From: Paenibacillus bovis
Lineage (GTDB): Bacteria > Bacillota > Bacilli > Paenibacillales > Paenibacillaceae
Direction: 5' to 3'
DNA: 64,000 bases
Assembly (NCBI RefSeq): GCF_001421015.2
Contig: NZ_CP013023.1
Location: forward strand, 1,729,501-1,793,500
The notes under the pieces were generated by a model. The model ran no database searches and was not told the DNA's origin. It saw only the letters and a list, made by a program, of their open reading frames with translations. Positions 18,067 to 29,386 of the stretch are shown piece after piece. A program made the translations under genes and the position numbers. Position 1 is the stretch's first letter; every line of letters starts with the position of its first letter.

Positions 18067-19047
18067 ATGAACAAGATTATGCCACTGGCCCGTCGCGGTA
18101 TTTCCAGCAGTCGACTCGCTCTCGGTTGTATGCCTTTTGGAGGCGGCTGGGATCAGACCCCGTTTACGGATGAGCATGTCAAAGAAGCGGAAGCTGCTGT
18201 CGATGCAGCACTGTCGATCGGGATTACCATGTTTGATCATGCAGATATCTATACAAAAGGCAAAGCCGAGCAGGTATTTGGCCGTGTACTGAATAATCGT
18301 CCGGAGCTGCGCGACCAGATCGTGATCCAGTCCAAATGCGGTATTCAGCTGGGAGATGATGAACTGCCCGGTCGCTTTAATTTCTCCAAAGAACATATTC
18401 TGCATTCTGTCGATGGCAGTCTGGAGCGTCTGGGTACGGATTATCTGGATATTCTGCTGCTGCATCGTCCCGATCCACTCGTCGAGCCGGATGAAGTGGC
18501 AGAAGCTTTTGCATCACTCAAAGCTTCCGGTAAAGTACGCTATTTTGGCGTATCCAATATGAGTGCTGCACAGATCGCCTTTTTGCAGCAGGCGATTCCG
18601 GACTCCTTTGCGGTAAATCAGCTGGAAATGAGTCTGGGTCATCTGCACTTTGTAGACCAAGGTGTTCATGTGAATCAGGCAGCAGGTACGGCTGTGAATT
18701 TTGCCGAGGGTCTGATGGAATACTGCCGGACGCAGAATATTCAGCTTCAGGCTTGGGGACCGCTGGCACAGGGTAAATTCTCCGGTCGCGATGTGAAGGA
18801 TCAACCAGAGCATATTCAGGAAGCTGCCCAGCTGGTACAGCAGCTCGCCAATGAAAAAGAAACAACACCTGAAGCGATTGTCCTGGGCTGGCTGATGCGC
18901 CATCCGGCGATGATTCAGCCGATTATCGGTACTACCAATCCGCAGCGGATCAAAGCCTGTAAAGATGCAGAACGCCAATCCCAGCTGATGACCCGTGAAG
19001 AGTGGTACACCCTGTATGTGAGCGCACGCGGCGAATCCATGCCATAA
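18067..19047 (+). CDS. Aldo/keto reductase
   Basis: NAD(P)H-dependent oxidoreductase of 326 residues with the (beta/alpha)8 fold. The catalytic tetrad is visible: Asp and Tyr in FDHADIYTKG, Lys in VIQSKCGI and His in LLLHRPDP. Later motifs are GKVRYFGVSNM, LQAWGPLAQGKFSG and the cofactor-site PIIGTTNPQRI near the C-terminus. The order and spacing resemble E. coli YdhF-type enzymes. ATG 18067 is preceded by GGAGGAAATAAA. It stands alone between two terminators. Substrate unknown. Confidence 0.9.
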   Translation: MNKIMPLARRGISSSRLALGCMPFGGGWDQTPFTDEHVKEAEAAVDAALSIGITMFDHADIYTKGKAEQVFGRVLNNRPELRDQIVIQSKCGIQLGDDELPGRFNFSKEHILHSVDGSLERLGTDYLDILLLHRPDPLVEPDEVAEAFASLKASGKVRYFGVSNMSAAQIAFLQQAIPDSFAVNQLEMSLGHLHFVDQGVHVNQAAGTAVNFAEGLMEYCRTQNIQLQAWGPLAQGKFSGRDVKDQPEHIQEAAQLVQQLANEKETTPEAIVLGWLMRHPAMIQPIIGTTNPQRIKACKDAERQSQLMTREEWYTLYVSARGESMP

Positions 19048-19277: not shown

Positions 19278-19740
19278 TATCTGAGTAGGAAAATTAAATT
19301 TTTACAGAGGAAAAAGCAGGTAAATATGACATGAGAAGTAAGCAAAAAATGGAAGAATTATAATCACGAGATTTAGATAGTCAAATTGCAAATATTTTAA
19401 TTAGGTATATAAAGGGAACGTATGATCTATGAGTGGAATAAATATCATATTTAATTACAATAAAATGTCCTATGTAACAAAATTGTAATAAATAAGAGCG
19501 TTTTCTTTTTGGTTGCCTAAGAAAATTATTTAAATCAAAAAGCAGAAATAGACCATGATGATAAGTTAGCAAATTCCCTTATGTTATAAGGGATTCCACC
19601 AATATTTTTACTTAAAATACCATAAATGTAAGATGAGAATCCGTATAAGACTAGGACTTTTGACATTTAACAAATATATGAAAAAAATAATTTATCTTAG
19701 TAATTGGAAAATTTATCATGTAAATTATTCGATTAGAGTA

Positions 19741-19783
19741 TATAATATGTTACAAATCAATAAAGTTATTCAAAACGAATAAC
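19741..19783 (+). promoter_or_regulatory. Putative promoter and operator of the lasso cluster
   Basis: A TATAAT box at 19741-19746 is followed by the inverted repeat GTTATTC, five bases, GAATAAC (19765-19783). If the box is used, the repeat sits just downstream of the start point, a good place for a repressor. No matching regulator gene is in the cluster. Confidence 0.35.
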
Positions 19784-19968
19784 AATTGGGTAAAGGTAAC
19801 AATGAGTTCATATGTTCAGGAAAAGAAGGACATAAGAAAATAATCAAACTGATGACCGATCGTGAGCATCATCTTTCTTTTATATAAAGAGAAGGATTGT
19901 TTGAAGGAACGAGGTCTTACAGTAGATGTGAATGTTCGTATCGGGGCATGAACCGGATAGGAGGACAA

Positions 19969-20259
19969 ATGGTGTATACAACAGACGACAAAACTAAGTT
20001 AGTGAATAAATCACTAATCTCTGCACAATCCATCTATCGCTCACCTATTGTTACTCTGGATAAACCTGATCCTTTCAGTATCCATAGGACTGGTCTCGAA
20101 CCGTATCCATGGCAAAAAAGCACAGGGATCTGCAAAACGACTTCTCTGGTAGATCATTACCGTCACCGATTGGATAGCTATATCAGCCAGCGTGATCAGT
20201 TAAAGCAGTATAGTGACCAATTACGGCAGGAAACAACTATTAATCCTCATCTTCATTAA
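19969..20259 (+). CDS. Unknown small protein at the head of the lasso cluster
   Basis: A 96-residue protein of no recognised family, 78 bases before the cyclase on the same strand. The likely start is ATG 19969 or GTG 19972, close behind AGGAGG; an earlier in-frame ATG at 19897 has a poorer context. The sequence is polar, with Asp/Pro-rich middle segments (LDKPDPFSIHRTGLEPYPWQ) and a C-terminal helix rich in Gln and charged residues (DSYISQRDQLKQYSDQLRQE). It has no signal peptide or membrane segment. It could be an accessory or regulatory protein of the cluster, or a non-essential passenger. Confidence 0.5.
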   Translation: MVYTTDDKTKLVNKSLISAQSIYRSPIVTLDKPDPFSIHRTGLEPYPWQKSTGICKTTSLVDHYRHRLDSYISQRDQLKQYSDQLRQETTINPHLH

Positions 20260-20337
20260 TTGATGCAGGCATGACCTATATATGAATTATAAATACACCG
20301 ATATTCAAATAATCAATCACCCGAAGGAGGTGCAGGC

Positions 20338-22290
20338 ATGAGTGCAACAGCTGGAATCTGGGATATGGCAAAACGGCATGACCATGATGAATTGCAGCAG
20401 CAGGGCAATCGTATGATGCAGAGTATGGAGCGGTACCCGGCGGATGCTTCGGGTATATGGCAGGGAGAACATCTTTTCCTCGGCTGCCATGATCAGTGGG
20501 TCACTCCAGAATCGGTTCATCAGCGTATGCCCCATTATGATTCGGTTCGCCGACTGGCGATTACAGGAGACGTAATTATTGATAATCGGGAAGAGCTGTT
20601 CAGCCAATTGGGATTGAACGCTTCTATGCATGATATACCGGATATTATGCTGCTGCTTCATGCCTACGATAAATGGGGCGAGCAAATGCCCCGTTATCTG
20701 AACGGTGATTTCGCTTTTGCAATCTGGGACGAATCCAGACAACAGCTGTTTCTCGCAAGAGACTGGTCGGGTAACCGTACGCTGTATTATTACCAGACCG
20801 CCGAGAAATTTATTTTCGCCAGTACGATGGAAGCTCTGTTCCAGACCGGCGATGTAAGCAAAAAATTATCTACACCGTGGATGGCGGAATTCCTCACAAC
20901 CGTTGCGATGGAAGAGTCGACCGATATTCAGGCAACGGTGTACGAGCAGATCAAGCAGCTGCCGCCAGCACATGCGATGATCCTGTCGGCAGACAAATCA
21001 TCCATTTACCAATATGGTACGCTGCTGCCAGACGAGCCACTGCGGCTGAAGTCGGATGGAGAATATGTAGAAGCTTTCCGCGATGTGTACAGCCGGGTGA
21101 TCCGTGCCAAGCTGCGTACCCGTCACGGCGTAGCAGCTACGCTGAGCGGCGGACTGGACTCGGGCAGTGTAGTAAGTTACGCAGCCAAAATCCTGTCCGG
21201 TCAGAACAAGCCGATCTATACATACAGCTTTGTGCCGATTCCTGGCTTCAAAGACTGGACCTCCTCGCGGTTGATGGCTAATGAACGGCCATATATTGAA
21301 GAGACGGTGAAACATGTCAGCCGGATTCATCCGGTACATGATCATTATATGAACTTTGCCGATCGCAGTCCGCTCAGCGAAGTGGAGCACTGGCTTTCGC
21401 TGATGGAGATGCCTTACAAGTATTTTGAGAACTCCTTCTGGATTCGCGGTATTTTTGAACAGGCACAGCAGCAGGGAGCCGGTGTACTGCTTACGGGAGC
21501 ACGGGGGAACTTTACGATCTCCTGGGGACCGGCGATCGAGTATTATGGCGAGATGCTCAAAAAGTTCCAGTGGATCAAACTGTATCAGGAAATGAAGCTG
21601 TACAGCCAGAATGCCGGTATCCGGCGCAAAAAGATTATCCAGCAGATTCAGCAGTCCGCCTTTCCCCGGTTAAGCCGCACTACACGCGATCTGGGACGCC
21701 CGGATGCGCTGAAATGGATTAATCCGGAACTGGCAGAGCGGACCGGGATGGCGGAGCGGGTGCGCCGGGCCGAGCTGGAGCTGGTAGGCAGTGACACCAT
21801 GAGCGATCAGGATATCCGGCTGGACAAGTTCTCCAATCTGGCGACCGCCAACAAGGATGGCGCTGTAACCTCCAAAATATCCATGGGATACGGCGTCTGG
21901 GAACGCGACCCGACGAATGATCCTAGAGTGATCAAGTTCTGTCTGTCGGTACCGTATAACCAGTATGTACAAAATGGAATGGACCGCGCGCTGATCCGGC
22001 GTGCGACGGCAGGAGACCTGCCGGACAAGATCAGGCTGAACCAGAAAGTACGTGGTCTGCAGCCTGCCGATTGGGTACAGCGTATGCTGCCGATGTGGCC
22101 TGCCTTTACCAGCGAGATCCGTGAGATCTGTCAGGATCCGGCAGCTGCCGCATGGATGAACACCAGCAATATCATGGAAGCTCTAAATGAAGTGGGAGAT
22201 TCCCCTTCGGCCGAAGCGGCATTTAATCCGGCTACACGCCTGCTGATGCGCAGTCTTATTATGGGACGATTCATCCGCAGCCTAGCATAG
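20338..22290 (+). CDS. padeC-like: Lasso peptide macrolactam synthetase (asparagine synthetase-like)
   Basis: Cyclase that adenylates a ring Asp or Glu side chain and lets the core N-terminus attack it. The 650-residue protein has an N-terminal Ntn-hydrolase-like domain that begins MSATAG and so lacks the Cys needed for glutaminase activity, as in known lasso cyclases. The synthetase half has the ATP-pyrophosphatase motif LSGGLDSGSVVSYAA near residues 269-283. Its C-terminus has RRATAGDLPDKIRLNQKVRGLQ. ATG 20338 follows AAGGAGGTG. It directly precedes four precursor genes that each carry Asp at core position 9, which supports the role. Assignment to the paeninodin type follows from its neighbours. 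Confidence 0.93.
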   Translation: MSATAGIWDMAKRHDHDELQQQGNRMMQSMERYPADASGIWQGEHLFLGCHDQWVTPESVHQRMPHYDSVRRLAITGDVIIDNREELFSQLGLNASMHDIPDIMLLLHAYDKWGEQMPRYLNGDFAFAIWDESRQQLFLARDWSGNRTLYYYQTAEKFIFASTMEALFQTGDVSKKLSTPWMAEFLTTVAMEESTDIQATVYEQIKQLPPAHAMILSADKSSIYQYGTLLPDEPLRLKSDGEYVEAFRDVYSRVIRAKLRTRHGVAATLSGGLDSGSVVSYAAKILSGQNKPIYTYSFVPIPGFKDWTSSRLMANERPYIEETVKHVSRIHPVHDHYMNFADRSPLSEVEHWLSLMEMPYKYFENSFWIRGIFEQAQQQGAGVLLTGARGNFTISWGPAIEYYGEMLKKFQWIKLYQEMKLYSQNAGIRRKKIIQQIQQSAFPRLSRTTRDLGRPDALKWINPELAERTGMAERVRRAELELVGSDTMSDQDIRLDKFSNLATANKDGAVTSKISMGYGVWERDPTNDPRVIKFCLSVPYNQYVQNGMDRALIRRATAGDLPDKIRLNQKVRGLQPADWVQRMLPMWPAFTSEIREICQDPAAAAWMNTSNIMEALNEVGDSPSAEAAFNPATRLLMRSLIMGRFIRSLA

Positions 22291-22319
22291 CATTGTATAC
22301 CCTATAAAGGAGGTGAATA

Positions 22320-22457
22320 ATGAACATGACAAAAATGGAATGGCAAGCTCCGGAAATGCAGGTCCTGGATGTTAATGAAACAGCAGCTGGTAAAGGCTGG
22401 AAAGTCATTGACTGGGTTACTTATGATGATGCCGATCTGTACAACCCGGGCAGCTAA
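22320..22457 (+). CDS. padeA-like: Lasso peptide precursor 1
   Basis: A 45-residue precursor behind AAAGGAGGTG. The leader contains WQAPEMQVLDV, the region recognised by RRE proteins, with Trp where other lasso leaders have Tyr. Thr is at leader position -2 (NETA). The predicted core starts at the second Ala: ring AGKGWKVID (Ala1 to Asp9), tail WVTYDDADLYNPGS. The C-terminal Ser matches the residue phosphorylated in paeninodin. The leader (MNMTKMEW) is the most divergent of the four, but the core is identical to that of precursor 2. Confidence 0.92.
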   Translation: MNMTKMEWQAPEMQVLDVNETAAGKGWKVIDWVTYDDADLYNPGS

Positions 22458-22523
22458 TTGTTGCATATCAAAGGGGTAAGTTGCACGACCAATCTATCCA
22501 AAACATTTGAGGAGGAAATACTC

Positions 22524-22661
22524 ATGAACCAAGAAAAAATGCAATGGCAAGCTCCAACGTTGGAAGTTTTGGATGTCAATGAAACAGCAGCTGGTAAAGG
22601 CTGGAAAGTCATTGACTGGGTTACTTATGATGATGCTGACCTGTACAACCCAGGTAGCTAA
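22524..22661 (+). CDS. padeA-like: Lasso peptide precursor 2
   Basis: A 45-residue precursor, MNQEKMQWQAPTLEVLDV leader then NETA and the same 23-residue core as precursor 1 (ring AGKGWKVID). ATG 22524 is chosen over an in-frame upstream TTG at 22458 because GAGGAGG sits just before it. The untranslated stretch AAAACATTTGAGGAGGAAAT is shared with precursor 3, which shows that gene and leader were duplicated together. Confidence 0.92.
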   Translation: MNQEKMQWQAPTLEVLDVNETAAGKGWKVIDWVTYDDADLYNPGS

Positions 22662-22723
22662 TCCATTTCTATTACAGTAACAGGCTCACCCCTGAACCCA
22701 AAACATTTGAGGAGGAAATAATA

Positions 22724-22858
22724 ATGAATCAGGAAAAAATGCAATGGCAAGCACCATCCTTGGAAGTTTTGGACGTGCATCAAACAGCTGCAGGTAAAGG
22801 TTGGAGAGTCATCGACTGGGTTACTTACGACGATGCGGATCTGTACAACCCGAGCTGA
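22724..22858 (+). CDS. padeA-like: Lasso peptide precursor 3 (variant core)
   Basis: A 44-residue precursor with leader ...WQAPSLEVLDV and HQTA before the cut. The core differs from copies 1 and 2 in two ways: Lys6 is Arg (ring AGKGWRVID) and the tail lacks the penultimate Gly (WVTYDDADLYNPS), giving 22 residues. Asp9 and the C-terminal Ser are kept, so ring closure and Ser phosphorylation remain possible. Confidence 0.92.
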   Translation: MNQEKMQWQAPSLEVLDVHQTAAGKGWRVIDWVTYDDADLYNPS

Positions 22859-22903
22859 TTTCCATATCCAACAGTTTGATTAACGAATAAGGAGGAACAC
22901 AGG

Positions 22904-23041
22904 ATGAAAAACGAAAAAATGCAATGGCAAGCTCCAGCAATGGAAGTTTTGGAAATGAACGAAACTGCCGCAGGTAAAGGCTGGAAAGCAATTGACTGGG
23001 TCACTTATGATGACGCAGACCTGTACAACCCGGGCAGCTAA
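22904..23041 (+). CDS. padeA-like: Lasso peptide precursor 4 (variant core)
   Basis: A 45-residue precursor, ATG 22904 behind AAGGAGGAACAC. Leader MKNEKMQWQAPAMEVLEM, then NETA. In the core Val7 is Ala (ring AGKGWKAID) with the usual tail WVTYDDADLYNPGS. It is the last intact copy; a degraded core-like stretch begins three bases after its stop. Confidence 0.92.
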   Translation: MKNEKMQWQAPAMEVLEMNETAAGKGWKAIDWVTYDDADLYNPGS

Positions 23042-23043
23042 TA

Positions 23044-23108
23044 GAATTAGCGCCAGGTCTAGGCTGAAAGGTCATCGACAACGTCGATTATAAATGATGC
23101 AGATTTGC
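23044..23108 (+). pseudogene. Decayed fifth lasso core fragment
   Basis: Aligned base by base with the precursor cores, this stretch keeps GGT-x-AGGCTG, GTCAT-GAC, TTAT and ATGATGCAGAT in order. The Trp5 codon TGG has become TGA, Trp10 is changed, and one extra base shifts the frame after the Tyr13 codon. No leader is attached. It reads as a leftover of tandem precursor duplication. Confidence 0.65.
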
Positions 23109-23183
23109 GAAAGTCTTGCTGATTGTTCTTGGTAAGCGACCTGTGTTGCTTCGTAAGACCAGCAACAATGTAATTCTCAAAGT

Positions 23184-23220
23184 GACCCTTATACCCCAAA
23201 AATGTATAAGGGTCCATTTT
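23184..23220 (+). terminator. Hairpin between precursor genes and biosynthetic genes
   Basis: GACCCTTATAC (23184-23194) pairs perfectly with GTATAAGGGTC (23204-23214) over a nine-base loop, followed by CATTTTCTT. The T tail is modest, so it may be a partial terminator or an mRNA-stabilising end that keeps precursor RNA above enzyme RNA. Confidence 0.6.
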
Positions 23221-23309
23221 CTTCACCAGGACACAAACATGATGGAATCACCGGTGTGCATTAAGTTCCGGAAGCGATCAGCCAGGGAACCTATCGGGAG
23301 GTTATTACT

Positions 23310-24260
23310 ATTAACACGATCCAACAAACCGTATATCAAGCCTTTGGTCTGCGGATTAAAAGCGAAATTTCCTTGCCTGAGCTACAGCAAGTTAACAATA
23401 CAAATAGATCAGCCGATGTTACCGTCCGTTTTGCGGATTTATCCCAGTGGGCGGGAGCCATTGCTACACGTGAAACCAATTTTACGATGCAGCCACCAGG
23501 CTTTATGTTCCAGATGCCCGATACGGGTATATTCTGTATTCACGAAGGAAACAGTATCACGATTGATCCTGCGCCACAGGTCAGCGAAGCCAAGCTGCGT
23601 CTGTTCGTGCTGGGGACCTGTATGGGTATTCTGCTAATGCAGCGTGATATTTTCCCGCTGCACGGCAGTGCACTGATGATTGAAGGGCAGGCGTATGCTT
23701 TTGTCGGTCATTCGGGAGCAGGTAAATCAACGCTTGCAGCTACATTTATGCAGGCAGGCTATCCGCTGATCAGCGATGATGTGATTGCCGTCAATTACGA
23801 GAATGGGGTACCGCATGTGTATCCAGCCTATCCGCAGCAGAAGCTGTGGCAGGAAAGCCTGAATCACTTTGGGATATCTTCGGATCAGTACTCTACGCTG
23901 CATGATGAATACGATAAATTCGCGATTCCGGTCGGCGATCAGTTCTATAATCAGCCGGTACCACTGGCAGGCATATTCGAACTGGTGAAGACGGATGAAC
24001 CGGAAGCCAAAATCACGGAACTGAACCGGCTGGAGCGTCTTCATATTATGCTGGCCCATACTTTCCGTGGAGCAATCGTGCCGCGTCTTGGTCTGAAGCA
24101 GCGTCATTTCTCCCAGGTTGCCGCACTCGCAGGCGAACTGGATGCGTATCAGATTCATCGTTCGACTACTGCCTTTACTGCACCTGCTATTATGGAAAAG
24201 GTTGTTCAGATCATCCAATCCCAAAATCATGCTGCATCCCGTTCCGGCAGCAACAGCTAG
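23310..24260 (+). CDS. padeK-like: Lasso precursor kinase (HPr kinase-like)
   Basis: ATP-dependent kinase related to HPr kinase/phosphorylase; in paeninodin-type clusters it phosphorylates the precursor's C-terminal Ser. The P-loop reads GHSGAGKSTLAATF near residue 132 and is followed by the acidic motif ISDDVIAV. The N-terminal domain includes YQAFGLRIKSEISLPEL. No ATG or GTG lies between the in-frame stop at 23262 and this conserved region; the best start is ATT 23310, eight bases after GGGAGG (316 residues). TTG 23373 would cut conserved sequence and has no ribosome site. The C-terminal Ser in all four precursors supports the role. Confidence 0.82.
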   Translation: MNTIQQTVYQAFGLRIKSEISLPELQQVNNTNRSADVTVRFADLSQWAGAIATRETNFTMQPPGFMFQMPDTGIFCIHEGNSITIDPAPQVSEAKLRLFVLGTCMGILLMQRDIFPLHGSALMIEGQAYAFVGHSGAGKSTLAATFMQAGYPLISDDVIAVNYENGVPHVYPAYPQQKLWQESLNHFGISSDQYSTLHDEYDKFAIPVGDQFYNQPVPLAGIFELVKTDEPEAKITELNRLERLHIMLAHTFRGAIVPRLGLKQRHFSQVAALAGELDAYQIHRSTTAFTAPAIMEKVVQIIQSQNHAASRSGSNS

Positions 24261-24357
24261 ACCGTCCGGGGATGAATGTGCCGAGGAGATCAAATCACCC
24301 ATTATAAGCAATACCGGCAATAAATAGATCAGCCTATCAGCGAAAGGGGAAAAGTTA

Positions 24358-24660
24358 ATGTCCAAGCAAATGATGAACGATACACAAAAAATCACCCAGA
24401 ATTCCAACTATATCGCCAGCGATATGAATGGTGAAAAGGTTATGCTCGATATCGAGTCCGGCAAGTACTATAATCTGGGCGCAATTGGCGGCCGGATCTG
24501 GGATATTAGTGAAAAACCGGTTACTGTAGACGAGATCGTCGCAGTACTGGTACAGGAGTATGATGTTGCGCAGGACGTGTGCAAACAGCAGGTAAGTGTA
24601 TTTGTAGAAAAAATGCTGCAGGAAGGGCTGGTTGAGGTCAATGGGGCTGCCGTTCGCTAA
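24358..24660 (+). CDS. padeB1-like: Lasso RRE protein (PqqD-like)
   Basis: A 100-residue PqqD-like RiPP recognition element that binds the precursor leader and presents it to the protease and cyclase. The sequence fits the fold: beta strands in YIASDMNGEKVMLDIESGKYYNLG, then a winged-helix part with GGRIWDIS, VDEIVAVLVQEYDV and a C-terminal helix VEKMLQEGLVEV. ATG 24358 follows AAAGGGG. The gene overlaps the protease gene, typical of split B1/B2 lasso systems. The aromatic-containing leader motif WQAP in the precursors is its likely docking site. Confidence 0.9.
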   Translation: MSKQMMNDTQKITQNSNYIASDMNGEKVMLDIESGKYYNLGAIGGRIWDISEKPVTVDEIVAVLVQEYDVAQDVCKQQVSVFVEKMLQEGLVEVNGAAVR

Positions 24661-25105
24661 ATTGTCCAAAGCAGCCAAACTGCGCAACTACCCGGCTGCG
24701 ATGCGCAAGCTAATGCTGGAAGCTCTGTTTTACCTTGCCTGGGGGCGCATCATGAAGATGCGGCCTTTTGCCAAAGTCTCTCCGTCCCTGGGTGATTATA
24801 TGCAGGAGACCACGTATGAGTCGGATCGGGATGCTCACCGTCAGGCGGTGCAGATCTCCAAAGCGCTGCATCTGGTCAGTCCACATGTGTTCTGGGAAAC
24901 GGAATGTCTCGTTATGGCTTTTGCTGCGATGAAAATGCTTGAACGCCGCAAGCTGCCAAGTACACTTTATCTCGGTATGCGCCGTGACGAAAAAGGCGGC
25001 AATGCCGCACATGCCTGGCTGAGAAGCGGACGCTTTTATCTGACAGGCGCCAAGGAAATCGAACAATATACAGTCGTCGGGCGGTTTGCCAAGCAGTTCA
25101 ACTGA
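24632..25105 (+). CDS. padeB2-like: Lasso leader protease (transglutaminase-like B2)
   Basis: Cysteine protease that removes the leader so that Ala1 is free for cyclisation. The protein of 154-157 residues has the catalytic Cys in WETECLVMAFAAMKML and the catalytic His in NAAHAWLRSG, followed by a YTVVGRF strand, as in lasso B2 proteins. The start is either TTG 24632 or ATG 24641; both overlap the RRE gene, so translation is probably coupled. The N-terminal hydrophobic helix ALFYLAWGRIM is usual in this family. Confidence 0.9.
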   Translation: MRSMGLPFAKLSKAAKLRNYPAAMRKLMLEALFYLAWGRIMKMRPFAKVSPSLGDYMQETTYESDRDAHRQAVQISKALHLVSPHVFWETECLVMAFAAMKMLERRKLPSTLYLGMRRDEKGGNAAHAWLRSGRFYLTGAKEIEQYTVVGRFAKQFN

Positions 25106-25139
25106 CAACGATTGAATACAGAATATAAAGGAGTAAGCC

Positions 25140-26333
25140 ATGAATAAGGAATGGGGCCTTGATCTACGGAACTTCCCTGTCGAATTGAAACTGATGCTGG
25201 GTTCAATGAAGTCCAAGCCTGCTGACCTGTTACTGGCTGGCGGAGAATCTGCGCTGGACTGGCAGGAGTTCAGTTCGCTGTCTATGCATCACCGTGTTTA
25301 TCCTACGATCCATGCGCATCTGTCGGCGTACAGCGATCTGCTGCCAGCAGAGACGATGCAGTGGCTGAATCACCGCTATCACCATAATACCTTCACCATG
25401 CTGCAGCTCAGCGGCCAAATGCAAAAGGTCAGCCAGGCGTTTAACAAGCAGGATATTCCGGCTCTCCAGCTCAAGGGTCCGGTCCTCGCTCAGCTGCTCT
25501 ATGGGGATCTGTCCCGCCGCACGTCCAAGGATCTGGATGTACTGGTACCGATGGATCGTATAGAAGCAGCCGAACAGACACTGCTGGAACTTGGATATAC
25601 CAAGACCCAGGAAGTGGACCGCACGCTGGATAAATGGAAATGGCGCTACAATCATGAATCCTACACGCATGAACGTACCGGTGTAGAGATTGAGCTGCAC
25701 TGGCGGCTGAACGGAGATGCTGGTGCGGAACAAAGCTTTGACGATCTGTGGACACGCAAACAAACGATGCAGTTTGGCGGTACCTCCGTGCATATGCTGG
25801 GCAAAGAAGATCTGCTGATCTATCTCGCTGTCCATGGGGCACGTCATGCCTGGTTCCGGCTGCGCTGGTTGGCGGATATTGACAGACTGGTACGTATGGA
25901 TATCGACTGGGAACTGCTCACACGCCTGGCTCGCCAGTATAAGAGCAGTCATATTATCGGTCAGGCTTTTCTGCTGTCGGCTGCTCTGCTGGAGACCCCG
26001 GTAACACCGCAGATGGAAGTCCTGATGAATCAGCCGCGTGCCAGAGATCTGGCTCGCCGGGTTATTGTATTTATCCGGGAAAAGGTCAGCCTCTGTCCAG
26101 AACCGGAAACCGAGCGGCTGGCGCAAAAATACCGTTCCTATCAGTATGCACTGCGTACCAACGGTCAAAAAGCATTGTTCTGGTGGCGCAAAATGACGCC
26201 GGATGCCTGGGATATGCAGACTCTGCCGCTGCCGAAGCCGCTGCACTTTATGTATTATCCGCTTCATCCGTTTCTGCTGCTGTACCGGCGCAATCAGCGC
26301 CGCAGTGCCCTGCAGCGGGAGGTGGGCCAGTGA
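25140..26333 (+). CDS. padeN-like: Nucleotidyltransferase-family protein of the lasso cluster
   Basis: A 397-residue member of the NTP_transf_5-like family found in many paeninodin-type clusters. The active-site pattern LKGPVLAQLLYG, then SKDLDVLV (two metal-binding Asp) lies near residues 110-135. Further conserved parts are VEIELHWRL and LIYLAVHGARHAWFRLRWLADI. ATG 25140 follows AAAGGAG. The stop overlaps the start of the exporter gene. The modification it makes is not established; in related clusters it has been proposed to act on the product or on phosphorylated precursor. Confidence 0.85.
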   Translation: MNKEWGLDLRNFPVELKLMLGSMKSKPADLLLAGGESALDWQEFSSLSMHHRVYPTIHAHLSAYSDLLPAETMQWLNHRYHHNTFTMLQLSGQMQKVSQAFNKQDIPALQLKGPVLAQLLYGDLSRRTSKDLDVLVPMDRIEAAEQTLLELGYTKTQEVDRTLDKWKWRYNHESYTHERTGVEIELHWRLNGDAGAEQSFDDLWTRKQTMQFGGTSVHMLGKEDLLIYLAVHGARHAWFRLRWLADIDRLVRMDIDWELLTRLARQYKSSHIIGQAFLLSAALLETPVTPQMEVLMNQPRARDLARRVIVFIREKVSLCPEPETERLAQKYRSYQYALRTNGQKALFWWRKMTPDAWDMQTLPLPKPLHFMYYPLHPFLLLYRRNQRRSALQREVGQ

Positions 26334-28126
26334 ATGAGCTGCGCAGCTACGTAAATGAACTACGCCAATATGGTGGCAAGCGAATCTATTTCTATATCGG
26401 TCTGATGCTGGTCATCAGTCTGCTCGATATGGTAACCCTGTATATGCTCGTTCCGCTGCTCAGCCTGATTGGTGTGTTTGGCGGAGCAGGCAGCAGCACG
26501 CTACCGATGGCCTCGCTGTTCGCGCCGCTCAAGCAGATGCCGGTGGCGACTACATTGATTATTATTTTGTCGATCTACAGTCTGCTGACAATCGTACAGG
26601 GACTGATGCAGCGCAAGCAGGCTATTATGGGTGCCGAGATCCAGCAGGGATTTATCAAAAGTCTGCGGCTGCGAGTCTATCGCTCGATTATGCGCTCCAA
26701 CTGGACCTTTTTCCTGCGCAAGCGCAAATCGGATCTTAGTCATATGCTGACTACCGAGTTGGCCAGAGTCAGTCAGGGTACGAATCTGGTATTGATGCTG
26801 TCCACTTCGCTGCTGTTTACCGTGATCCAAATCGGATTCGCTATGGTACTGTCGTTCAAGATGACGCTGCTTGTAATGATCGGCGGCGGATTGCTGGCCT
26901 TGTATTCACGCAAGTTTGTCCGCAAATCCAAAACGTACGGAGATAAAATGACCCAGCTATCGCAGGATTATTTCTCCGGTATTCAGGAGAATCTGAACGG
27001 AATCAAGGATATCAAAAGCAATATGCTGGAGTCTTCGCACTTTGACTGGTTCCGCAATATGGCCAACAAGCTGGAATATAATCTGATCCAGCAGATTCGC
27101 CTGAATTCGGCTACCCAGCTGATCTACAAGCTGATCTCGGTCGTATTCATTGTCGGCTTTATCGTATTATCCGCACAGGTATTCAAGCTGCAGCCGGAGC
27201 GTTCAGTGCTGATCGTACTGATCTTTGCCCGGTTATGGCCACGATTCAGTGGTATCCAGTCGTATCTGGAATATATCGGTGCTTTGCTGCCGGCTTTCCG
27301 CGCACTCTCCAAGCTGCAGACCGAATGTGAACAGGCCGAAGAATCATATCGTCCGGTTGGATATGGTCAGGGACCGGTACAGCCGCTGCAGCAGGGTATC
27401 CGCTGTGAGCAGGTATCGTTCCGTTACAGCGAGGAGCATGGTAATGCTCTGCAGAATATTAATCTGTTTATTCCGGCAGGCCAGATGACGGCGGTCGCCG
27501 GACGCTCGGGAGCGGGCAAAAGTACGCTGATCGATATGCTGATGGGCCTCATGGAGCCGCAGGAAGGCAAAGTCACTGTAGATGGAGATGTGCTGACCGG
27601 AGAGCGTCTGCTGTCCTGGCGCAACTCGATCGGTTATGTAGCACAGGAGCCGTTCCTGTTCCACAGTAGTATTCGTGAGAATCTGCTGCTTGTGAAGCCG
27701 GATGCGAGTGAGGAAGAGCTATGGGAAGCATTATCATTTGCTGCCTGTGACGAATTTGTACGGAATCTGCCGGATGGACTGGACACGGTTATCGGTGACC
27801 GCGGTGTCCGTCTGTCCGGAGGAGAACGTCAGCGTATTGTATTGGCACGTGCGATTCTGCGCAAGCCGGAAGTGCTGATTCTGGATGAAGCGACCAGCTC
27901 ACTGGATACCGAGAATGAAGCCAAGGTACAGCTGGCTCTGGAGAAGCTGAAAGGCAAGATCACATTGATCGTTATCGCTCACCGTCTGTCCACGATTCGC
28001 AATGCCGACCAGGTGATTGTAATGGATCATGGCCAGATTGTGCAGCAGGGCGGATTCAACCAGCTGTCCAGCGAGACCAAGGGAACCTTCCACCAGCTGC
28101 TGGCGTATCAGACAGCTGCCCAGTAA
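26330..28126 (+). CDS. padeD-like: Lasso peptide ABC exporter
   Basis: ABC half-transporter of 598 residues: about six transmembrane segments in the first 320 residues, then an ATPase domain with Walker A GRSGAGKSTLID (near residue 400), Q-loop YVAQEPFLF, signature LSGGERQ and Walker B VLILDEATSSLD. It is expected to dimerise and export the mature lasso peptide and so protect the producer. The start is GTG 26330, seven bases after GGGAGG and overlapping the nucleotidyltransferase stop; the longer upstream frame is an overlap artefact. A strong terminator follows and marks the cluster end. Confidence 0.9.
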   Translation: MNELRSYVNELRQYGGKRIYFYIGLMLVISLLDMVTLYMLVPLLSLIGVFGGAGSSTLPMASLFAPLKQMPVATTLIIILSIYSLLTIVQGLMQRKQAIMGAEIQQGFIKSLRLRVYRSIMRSNWTFFLRKRKSDLSHMLTTELARVSQGTNLVLMLSTSLLFTVIQIGFAMVLSFKMTLLVMIGGGLLALYSRKFVRKSKTYGDKMTQLSQDYFSGIQENLNGIKDIKSNMLESSHFDWFRNMANKLEYNLIQQIRLNSATQLIYKLISVVFIVGFIVLSAQVFKLQPERSVLIVLIFARLWPRFSGIQSYLEYIGALLPAFRALSKLQTECEQAEESYRPVGYGQGPVQPLQQGIRCEQVSFRYSEEHGNALQNINLFIPAGQMTAVAGRSGAGKSTLIDMLMGLMEPQEGKVTVDGDVLTGERLLSWRNSIGYVAQEPFLFHSSIRENLLLVKPDASEEELWEALSFAACDEFVRNLPDGLDTVIGDRGVRLSGGERQRIVLARAILRKPEVLILDEATSSLDTENEAKVQLALEKLKGKITLIVIAHRLSTIRNADQVIVMDHGQIVQQGGFNQLSSETKGTFHQLLAYQTAAQ

Positions 28127-28459
28127 TACTGGATGGGCTCATGCTTCTTTTTCTGACAGATAAACCGTTCGCTGCTGAAGTGAATAAAATTATGTGTATG
28201 CAATAAGATGAGCGATATGCAGATCAACCAATGGTATGCAGGCGAATTACACCATATGATATGAAAAAGGAACAGATCACTGCAATGCAGTGAAATCTGT
28301 TCCTTTTTTGATAGTTTGGATTAAGGATAGTCTGAATTGATTGTTGATACTGCAGAGTGGATTTTAGCAGAATAGTATTGGATTTGATGCCAGATCAGGG
28401 TATACAGCAATCGTTACTCTTTTCCAATCATTCGGTAAATGATTGTGTAGAGCCAGGAT
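28127..28459. other. Intergenic region after the lasso cluster
   Basis: Contains the cluster terminator. Nothing else gene-like was seen between it and the convergent reductase gene. Confidence 0.5.
28264..28310 (+). terminator. Terminator of the lasso cluster
   Basis: AAAAAGGAACAGAT pairs with ATCTGTTCCTTTTTT, with an inner ACTGCA/TGCAGT stem. The A-rich left side means it could also work in reverse. Confidence 0.85.
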
Positions 28460-29386
28460 TTACTTCAGATCCAGCCAGTTCAGTTCTTCGCGTGTCAAAT
28501 TGATCTTCGCACCCTCATCACAGGATAACAGCTCCTCACGGTTCTGTGCTCCGATCAGGGCACAGGTCGGGAAAGGCTGATTGAGTACATAGGCAAGTGC
28601 AATCTGGATCGTGGTGGTCTGCTTTTGTCCAGCCAGTTCTCCGGCACGGCGCAGCCGCTCCCAGTTGTCGTCGCTGTAGAATACGCGTACCAGGTCTTCA
28701 TTATCCCGTACTTCTGGAGTAAATCGGCCGGTAAAGAAGCCTCTCGCCTGCGAAGACCAGGACAGCAGCGGCAGCCGGGTCTGTTCATGCCAATCCAGTG
28801 TCTCGCGATCAGCGGAGACACAGCCCGGCCAGAACGGTTCATTGGCTTTGGCAAGGCTCAGATTGGGACTGCTGAACGTAAAGCCGGTTAATCCGTGGGA
28901 AGCCGCGTAATCATTCGCTTCCTGCAGCCGCTGCCATGTCCAGTTGGAGGCTCCAATAGCGCCTACCCGCCCGGCTTCGACATGCTCGTTAAGCGCTTCC
29001 AAAATAGTGCCTACAGGAACAGATGGATCATCCCGATGCAGACCATACAGCTCAATAAAGTCGGTTTGCAACCGTTCCAGACTGGTCATCAGATCACTGC
29101 GAATAGCCTCAGCATTAACACGTGGTCCATGCTGGTCATGATGCGCTCCCTTGGTCAGAATGACCAGCGCTTCGCGGTTGCCGCGTTCTTGCATGTATTG
29201 ACCGAGCACTTCTTCGCTTTCACCACCGCAGTAAATATGAGCAGTATCCACAGTCGTGCCGCCAATCGCCAGAAAAGCATCCAGATTCGCAGCTGCCTTT
29301 TCATAAGTATCATGTTTAAAGTAGTCGGTTCCTTTGATCAGCCGGGAGACCGGTTTGCGTGCACCTTCAATCTGGATATATTCCAT
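28460..29386 (-). CDS. Aldo/keto reductase
   Basis: A 308-residue NAD(P)H-dependent reductase. Catalytic Asp and Tyr are in VDTAHIYCGG, Lys in VILTKGAHHD, and His in LYGLHRDDP. The cofactor-binding end has CALIGAQNREEL. It belongs to a branch separate from the other reductase at 18 kb, with which it shares only the general fold. ATG 29386 follows AAGGAAG. It is transcribed away from an AraC regulator about 110 bases off, which probably controls it. Substrate unknown. Confidence 0.88.
   Translation of the reverse strand: MEYIQIEGARKPVSRLIKGTDYFKHDTYEKAAANLDAFLAIGGTTVDTAHIYCGGESEEVLGQYMQERGNREALVILTKGAHHDQHGPRVNAEAIRSDLMTSLERLQTDFIELYGLHRDDPSVPVGTILEALNEHVEAGRVGAIGASNWTWQRLQEANDYAASHGLTGFTFSSPNLSLAKANEPFWPGCVSADRETLDWHEQTRLPLLSWSSQARGFFTGRFTPEVRDNEDLVRVFYSDDNWERLRRAGELAGQKQTTTIQIALAYVLNQPFPTCALIGAQNREELLSCDEGAKINLTREELNWLDLK

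Follow-up and report, generated by a model that had tools for sequence, protein, structure and literature searches.

The lasso peptide locus of Paenibacillus bovis

The stretch of DNA analysed here (the window) comprises 64,000 nt of the 5.5 Mb genome of Paenibacillus bovis (NZ_CP013023.1) and holds, at positions 20338-28126, a lasso peptide biosynthesis locus of which all listed parts lie on the plus strand (Table 1). The locus is best read as an intact paeninodin-type operon with the order C-A1-A2-A3-A4-(decayed A5)-(hairpin)-K-B1-B2-N-D. For Firmicute lasso clusters the order C A K B1 B2 D was reported (PMC5067487), and the same order was found here with four A genes and with a nucleotidyltransferase between B2 and D. 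All enzyme reading frames of the cluster are intact. As in paeninodin-type clusters, RRE (B1) and protease (B2) are encoded by split genes, whereby the closest solved chain of B1 (9x90_B, E 3.6e-23) is named a lasso PqqD chaperone and B1 is the single PqqD match in the whole P. bovis genome. The initial annotation had claimed a full paeninodin-type gene set with these outer coordinates, four intact tandem precursors, three distinct cores (one with K6R and without the penultimate Gly, one with V7A) and a C-terminal Ser throughout, all of which was borne out by family assignments, gene order and the precursor sequences themselves.

Table 1. Features of the lasso locus, with positions in the window, strand and basis of assignment.
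Feature	Position	Strand	Basis and remarks
Small, fast-evolving open reading frame (ORF), 96 codons, just 5' of the cyclase	19969..20259	+	tblastn relatives
Lasso cyclase (C), intact	20338..22290	+	PF13537 (GATase_7) and PF00733 (Asn_synthase) over cut-off; SGGLDS motif in translation
Precursor A1	22320..22457	+	NF033524, 46.5 bits; core AGKGWKVIDWVTYDDADLYNPGS
Precursor A2	22524..22661	+	NF033524, 55.3 bits; core same as A1 (AGKGWKVIDWVTYDDADLYNPGS)
Precursor A3	22724..22858	+	NF033524, 54.1 bits; core AGKGWRVIDWVTYDDADLYNPS (K6R, penultimate Gly missing)
Precursor A4	22904..23041	+	NF033524, 42.0 bits; core AGKGWKAIDWVTYDDADLYNPGS (V7A)
Decayed fifth precursor, core region, broken frame	23044..23107	+	local alignment to A1
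Conserved hairpin around CCCTTATAC..GTATAAGGG, then T-rich tail	23185..23213	+	fold, conservation, covariance model
Hairpin behind paeninodin-family precursors, all loci	23185..23213 (window)		also L009-L016, L018, L020-L043, L046-L055, L057-L060, L062-L071, L073, L076, L080, L082, L083, L085-L091, L105
PadeK-type HPr-kinase-like protein (K), start read as ATT	23310..24260	+	homologues, motif residues
RRE (B1), PqqD-type	24358..24660	+	Pfam and NCBIfam over cut-off (NF033536 and NF033537 both reached for the B1/B2 pair)
Leader protease (B2), overlaps B1	24641..25105 (start approximate)	+	Pfam and NCBIfam over cut-off
Nucleotidyltransferase-like tailoring enzyme (N), NTP_transf_5	25140..26333	+	PF14907, over Pfam cut-off
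ABC exporter (D)	26330..28126	+	over Pfam cut-off; start corrected to GTG 26330

The precursors and their cores

The four precursor ORFs of 44-45 codons each stand in tandem, are each preceded by a GGAGG-type site and all exceed the cut-off of 27 bits that applies to the NCBIfam PadeA family NF033524. In the alignment their leaders keep the W and P of the WxxP motif as well as T(-2), and all four cores end in Ser. Pairwise comparison within the window revealed 3-8 synonymous versus 0-2 nonsynonymous codon differences for core codons 1-21, the corresponding numbers for the leader codons being 3-7 and 3-6. The core tail is held, and few residues occur at ring positions 6 and 7: in gene order these read KV, KV, RV, KA in the window and in P. 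dauci, RV, KV, RV, KA in P. wulumuqiensis, KV, RV, KA, KV in genome G006 and KV, RV, KA in P. hunanensis. Thus all three core types are present in each of these five close loci and the tail WVTYDDADLYNP(G)S is kept in 19 of their 19 precursors, from which it follows that the variants are old; judged from sequence, the precursor array is considered old and its core variants maintained. More distant are G008 and G009, with three precursors each and the core AGIG(W/Y)(R/K)QIDWVS(D/E)QDADLYNPS. The extra copies might serve dosage only, with K6R and V7A near-neutral and all products acting alike, as the differences are mild (K/R, V/A), the A1 and A2 cores are identical and P. wulumuqiensis A1 carries R6; this is a possible but doubtful view, however, given that, under neutrality, mixing or loss of the variants would be expected, whereas the three types recur in all five close loci including G006, whose cyclase is only 77% identical.

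Downstream of A4, at position 23044, begins what is left of a fifth precursor. Its alignment to the A1 core region scores 45, while the best of 1000 dinucleotide shuffles scores 30 (0/1000 reach 45), and the copy was likewise identified in P. dauci (score 47) and P. wulumuqiensis (49), again with 0/1000 shuffles each. As this copy sits between A4 and the hairpin, it would explain the distance between the last intact precursor and the hairpin, 144 nt in the window as compared to a median of 33.5 nt among the 66 distinct loci described below.

A hairpin behind paeninodin-family precursors

The hairpin folds with -16.7 kcal/mol as compared to -9.55 for shuffles (z -2.85; 2 of 200 shuffles as stable) and combines a stable stem with a U-run, the two hallmarks by which intrinsic terminators are recognised. 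A terminator consensus scan did not list it, the loop limit of the scan being 8 and the loop of the fold 9, and no Rfam 15 match at E<=1 was obtained for positions 19500-28600 of the window and seven other loci. The hairpin occupies the same place in 7 of 7 loci of the window's group. With CCTTATAC-N3-16-GTATAAGG as search pattern and the reversed pattern as control, 54 sites in 49 of 388 genomes of the family Paenibacillaceae were found, as compared to about 25 in 21 genomes for the control. Of the 54 sites, 41 have a PadeA precursor at a distance of no more than 200 nt (29 assigned by coordinates, 8 read from loci, 4 being genus loci), and the precursors thus followed include some whose cores are unrelated, e.g., that of L080 with the paeninodin ring AGPGTSTPD. 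Among 398 genomes taken class-wide, the pattern occurs in 14 and the reversed control in about 15; the 14 consist of three genus loci and eleven sites outside the family, of which L105 is the sole one beside a PadeA-like precursor, 17 nt behind it. An extension of the hairpin-precursor link to the class was considered weak, there being no overall enrichment over the control.

An alignment of 31 sequences documents pairing in 98.4% of cells (shuffles 95.0) and two-sided changes in 14 cells as compared to 3.1 in shuffles (0/500), and slid controls pair to only 20-57%. Two of the five covariation measures do not exceed shuffles, namely the number of pairs with two-sided change (3 vs 2.0; 98/500) and that of further pair types (6 vs 5.9; 382/500). 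Six pairs are invariant, for the most part as a consequence of the search pattern; informative are the innermost pair, with U-A instead of C-G in three rows, and the two outer pairs, which lie outside the pattern and show A-U for G-C in five rows and U-A for C-G in six. As related rows share changes, the number of independent events is smaller. At least 5 T within the 12 nt after the stem are found in 28 of 31 rows.

The derived covariance model (R1) was run on 51 loci which had been fetched for their precursors, cyclases or kinases regardless of a hairpin, and matched 48 of them at E<=0.007 (misses: L017, L019, L056), or 45 of 48 distinct Paenibacillaceae loci after removal of three repeated places; sequences from 11 of the 51 loci had been used for training, L022 coincides in position with training row L089, and a good number of the others are closely related. 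For L053, the match on the strand of the precursor has an E value no better than 0.018. The 30 best-scoring PadeA loci (L014-L043) include 28 matches. Adding 23 loci chosen by pattern yielded 71 loci, 66 of them distinct, and in all 66 a precursor lies at most 260 nt upstream of the hairpin, in 57 a kinase was identified downstream by tblastn, and the median distance from hairpin to kinase is 70 nt. As a discriminator between lasso sites and other same-stem sites, R1 was rejected: with 45.6 bits, L102, which has no precursor next to it, exceeds every lasso locus among the 51, and some same-stem sites are apparent terminators of unrelated genes. Since the model cannot discriminate, the claim made for the hairpin rests on its position. 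No PadeA-like precursor was found in L102-L104, which belong to one genus outside the family, and this lead was dropped. Taken by itself, the RNA looks like a terminator; its unusual trait is that, within the family, the sequence has been retained alongside a single kind of gene. The open-licence literature searched yielded no report of the hairpin, and the excerpted text of PMC13381572 contains 0 uses of terminator, hairpin, stem-loop or intergenic.

It may be asked whether one is dealing with an ordinary terminator of full strength which was kept by descent with the cluster, the kinase having its own promoter. Its terminator-like form and T-rich tail would fit, as would the 13 pattern sites that are not beside a PadeA precursor (L079 lies 22 nt after an unrelated ORF) and that the model scores as high. 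Nevertheless this explanation is rated unlikely, as the stem was kept while cores and loops changed completely, the outer pairs change together and, with a median of 70 nt before the kinase begins, there is hardly space for a promoter. A partial terminator, or a stabiliser of the mRNA end, is the preferred reading.

The kinase and its start codon

The kinase translation contains HGS, GAGKST and SDD, and its match to the His-Lys-Asp-Asp residues named for lasso HPr-like kinases (PMC9266682) was judged by eye. The database holds 2258 homologues, and no solved relative was found by sequence. Many relatives of the lasso kinase carry the name 'aldolase' in public records.

After the stop at 23262, the first in-frame ATG, GTG or TTG is TTG 23373. 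The homologous start is ATT in the window, in P. dauci and in P. wulumuqiensis and ATG in G006 and P. hunanensis, whereby GGGAGG is located 8 nt upstream of it in all five loci; in G008 and G009 an in-frame ATG follows GGGAGG at 2 nt and an ATT at 8 nt. Over codons 2-21 the window shows no difference to P. dauci, 2 synonymous and 0 nonsynonymous differences to P. wulumuqiensis and 3 synonymous and 1 nonsynonymous to G006, which fits a translated sequence. Among the 120 matches listed, the nearest database kinase has 295 aa and begins at the TTG, 21 codons after the ATT, the others having at least 305 aa. Based on this, AUU (ATT 23310) is the most likely start of the kinase, which places it 5' of the TTG at which the listed ORF begins.

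Alternatively, the cluster could be eroding, with a dead fifth copy, a lost kinase start and a product that is unmodified or not made. The decayed copy and the ATT where relatives have ATG would agree with this, but it is held improbable, since all enzyme frames are intact, GGGAGG was kept 8 nt upstream and the kinase N-terminal codons differ by 0-2 synonymous and 0 nonsynonymous changes among the three ATT species.

Distribution and surroundings of the cluster

In a sample of 16 genomes of the genus, P. bovis (G000) included, the cyclase was identified in six (G000 100%, G003, i.e., P. dauci, 97%, G015, i.e., P. wulumuqiensis, 94%, G006 77%, G008 and G009 63% identity), and all six possess 3-4 tandem precursors; the other ten gave neither a cyclase nor a PadeA match. 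Within the family at least four PadeA matches occur in 25 of 394 genomes, many of them in separate places. Arrays were counted by coordinates in the genera g16, g2, g17 and g5, where copies less than 350 bp apart were found in 1/22, 0/37, 7/51 and 4/75 genomes, respectively, and among these 185 genomes only G363 (four) and G386 (three) have three or more in a row. A four-in-a-row array as a novel point was rejected, as tandem copies are the rule in the genus clusters and g17 has a four-copy array. In some g17 clusters (L049 = G363:C5, L050 = G386:C26, L051, L053-L055) precursors of two types lie close together: the AGFG type forms a tandem set and, at a distance of about 2 kb, there is a GG(K/P)NG(V/I)YPDRNGKG type, and the model hairpin follows only the latter.

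The 96-codon ORF upstream of the cyclase has no Pfam match and is, by tblastn, 60% identical in P. dauci, 42% in P. wulumuqiensis and weakly related in P. hunanensis and G006. Two aldo/keto reductases flank the cluster in opposite orientation (18067-19047 and 28460-29386). Using them for an empty-site comparison failed, as no clean empty site is found among the matches listed for the 16 genus genomes and paralogues are many; in the cluster-free G005, the best aldo/keto reductase matches, among those listed, are about 0.95 Mb apart.

Proposed working of the locus

The explanation considered best as a whole, with a probability of about 0.68, is that of an intact operon making three lasso products, in which the hairpin would act as partial terminator or stabiliser and the ATT start would lower the amount of kinase. 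The starting point is what was observed of sequence, family membership, conservation, covariation and position, and the enzymatic steps are inferred from the known biochemistry of the family: recognition of the leader, phosphorylation of the precursor's C-terminal Ser, cleavage, closure of the ring and transfer of the sugar are taken from work on PadeB1, PadeK and PsmN (PMC5067487, PMC9266682). Initially, B1 would bind the WxxP leader common to all four precursors and K would phosphorylate the C-terminal Ser of the precursor. B2 is expected to cut after T(-2)-A(-1), whereupon C would close the Ala1-Asp9 ring around the tail. Next, N may decorate the phosphate with a sugar (or nucleotide), and D would finally export the product. 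Three products would result, the KV core having two gene copies. Their calculated monoisotopic lasso masses are 2551.202 (A1/A2 core), 2522.187 (A3) and 2523.171 (A4), the last two being 0.98 Da apart; HPO3 would raise them to 2631.168, 2602.153 and 2603.137, and HPO3 plus a hexose to 2793.221, 2764.206 and 2765.190, respectively. Co-transcription, the action of the hairpin and the effect of the ATT codon are, like any activity of the peptides, our suggestions: many transcripts would end at the hairpin after the last precursor, giving more precursor RNA than enzyme RNA, and the ATT start would further lower kinase output. Internal terminators were reported to control stoichiometry in another operon type (PMC9045158).

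A more general idea, for which we see even odds, is that a dedicated RNA hairpin (CCCUUAUAC…GUAUAAGGG, U-rich tail) ends the precursor cistron across Paenibacillaceae genera while the cores change completely, and either sets the ratio of precursor to enzyme or is read by a protein of the cluster; together with the conserved AUU start it would tune the phosphorylated share. That the palindrome is instead a DNA operator is very improbable, as its half-sites are 6 to 16 bases apart at the sites linked to precursors, a variation that a dimeric protein could scarcely accommodate, and a T-tail lies on one side only.

Several findings weigh against the operon and hairpin as proposed. The T-tail of the window hairpin is modest (CATTTTCTT); 13 of the 54 family pattern sites lie away from PadeA precursors (12 read at the locus, the second G206 site judged from G206 being without a PadeA match); class-wide the pattern is no commoner than its reversed control, with ten of the eleven sites outside the family away from precursors; and the covariance model scores other same-stem sites as high or higher. 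As to the enzymes, the cyclase reaches 367 bits with NF033535, under the curated cut-off of 525, the kinase scores under all its Pfam and NCBIfam cut-offs, and the kinase start region differs from that of P. hunanensis by 8 synonymous and 4 nonsynonymous changes. The decayed fifth copy together with the non-standard kinase start could also mean erosion, and since ten of the 16 genus genomes lack a cyclase match, any benefit would not be general.

If the operon works as proposed, the locus offers one enzyme set three natural, nearly isosteric lasso substrates which were kept apart over several species, and lends itself well as a natural experiment on the extent of ring variation that a paeninodin cyclase and kinase accept. 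The hairpin is of more general use, as it may mark the ends of precursor transcripts and could help to find precursor genes, and it would make an excess of precursor over enzyme in a lasso operon testable in one small element.

Comparison with known systems

The closest characterised system is that of paeninodin from Paenibacillus dendritiformis (PadeA/C/K/B1/B2/D), with which the window locus shares the order C A K B1 B2 D, the WxxP-type leader family, the Ala1-Asp9 ring and the C-terminal Ser. The cores are identical in 6 of 23 positions and the rings in 4 of 9, with the full paeninodin core being taken from L080, a locus whose precursor is followed by a hairpin of the window's type. The paeninodin cluster has one precursor as compared to four in the window.

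Tandem PadeA genes with small core differences are also present in the g17 arrays (G363 four, G386 three copies), but their cores (AGFGxxKxDFTYVDGK..) are unrelated to those of the window and the model places a hairpin there only after another precursor that stands alone. According to PMC13381572, a lasso cluster may code for more than one precursor, the cores being divergent and the leader motif shared, and leaders of the paeninodin type use WxxP. The linear polyphosphorylated peptides (LPP) treated there share RRE, HprK-like kinase, NTP transferase and exporter with the window, but are described with a YxxP leader and without cyclase, while the window has a cyclase, B2 and WxxP leaders. Membership of the window locus among the LPP was rejected on account of its WxxP leaders and cyclase.

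The initial annotation had expected a family of new, probably phosphorylated lasso peptides. The phosphorylation is upheld as best reading by the kinase residues and the C-terminal Ser but is incomplete, since the nucleotidyltransferase suggests, by analogy with PsmN of pseudomycoidin (PMC9266682), a glycosylation of the phospho-Ser; a phosphorylated, possibly glycosylated, lasso family is thus the best reading of the cluster. As in the window, kinase and nucleotidyltransferase are combined within one lasso cluster in the case of pseudomycoidin (psm), according to the same paper. The novelty of the peptides was not upheld. While a search of the open-licence literature with four core fragments found no paper, PMC7829367 prints a close relative, the predicted single-precursor peptide MSKKEWQEPTIEVLDINQTMA-GKGWKEIDWVSDHDADLVNPS of the cave Paenibacillus strains 23TSA30-6/28ISP30-2, the core of which is identical to that of the window in 17 of 23 positions (ring 8/9) if it begins at Ala; in the authors' own prediction the core begins one residue further on and the ring comprises eight residues. 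In addition, relatives already carry the name 'paeninodin family lasso peptide' at NCBI, and related cores fill genus g5. Hence the window locus is less new than had been claimed and constitutes another member of the known paeninodin family.

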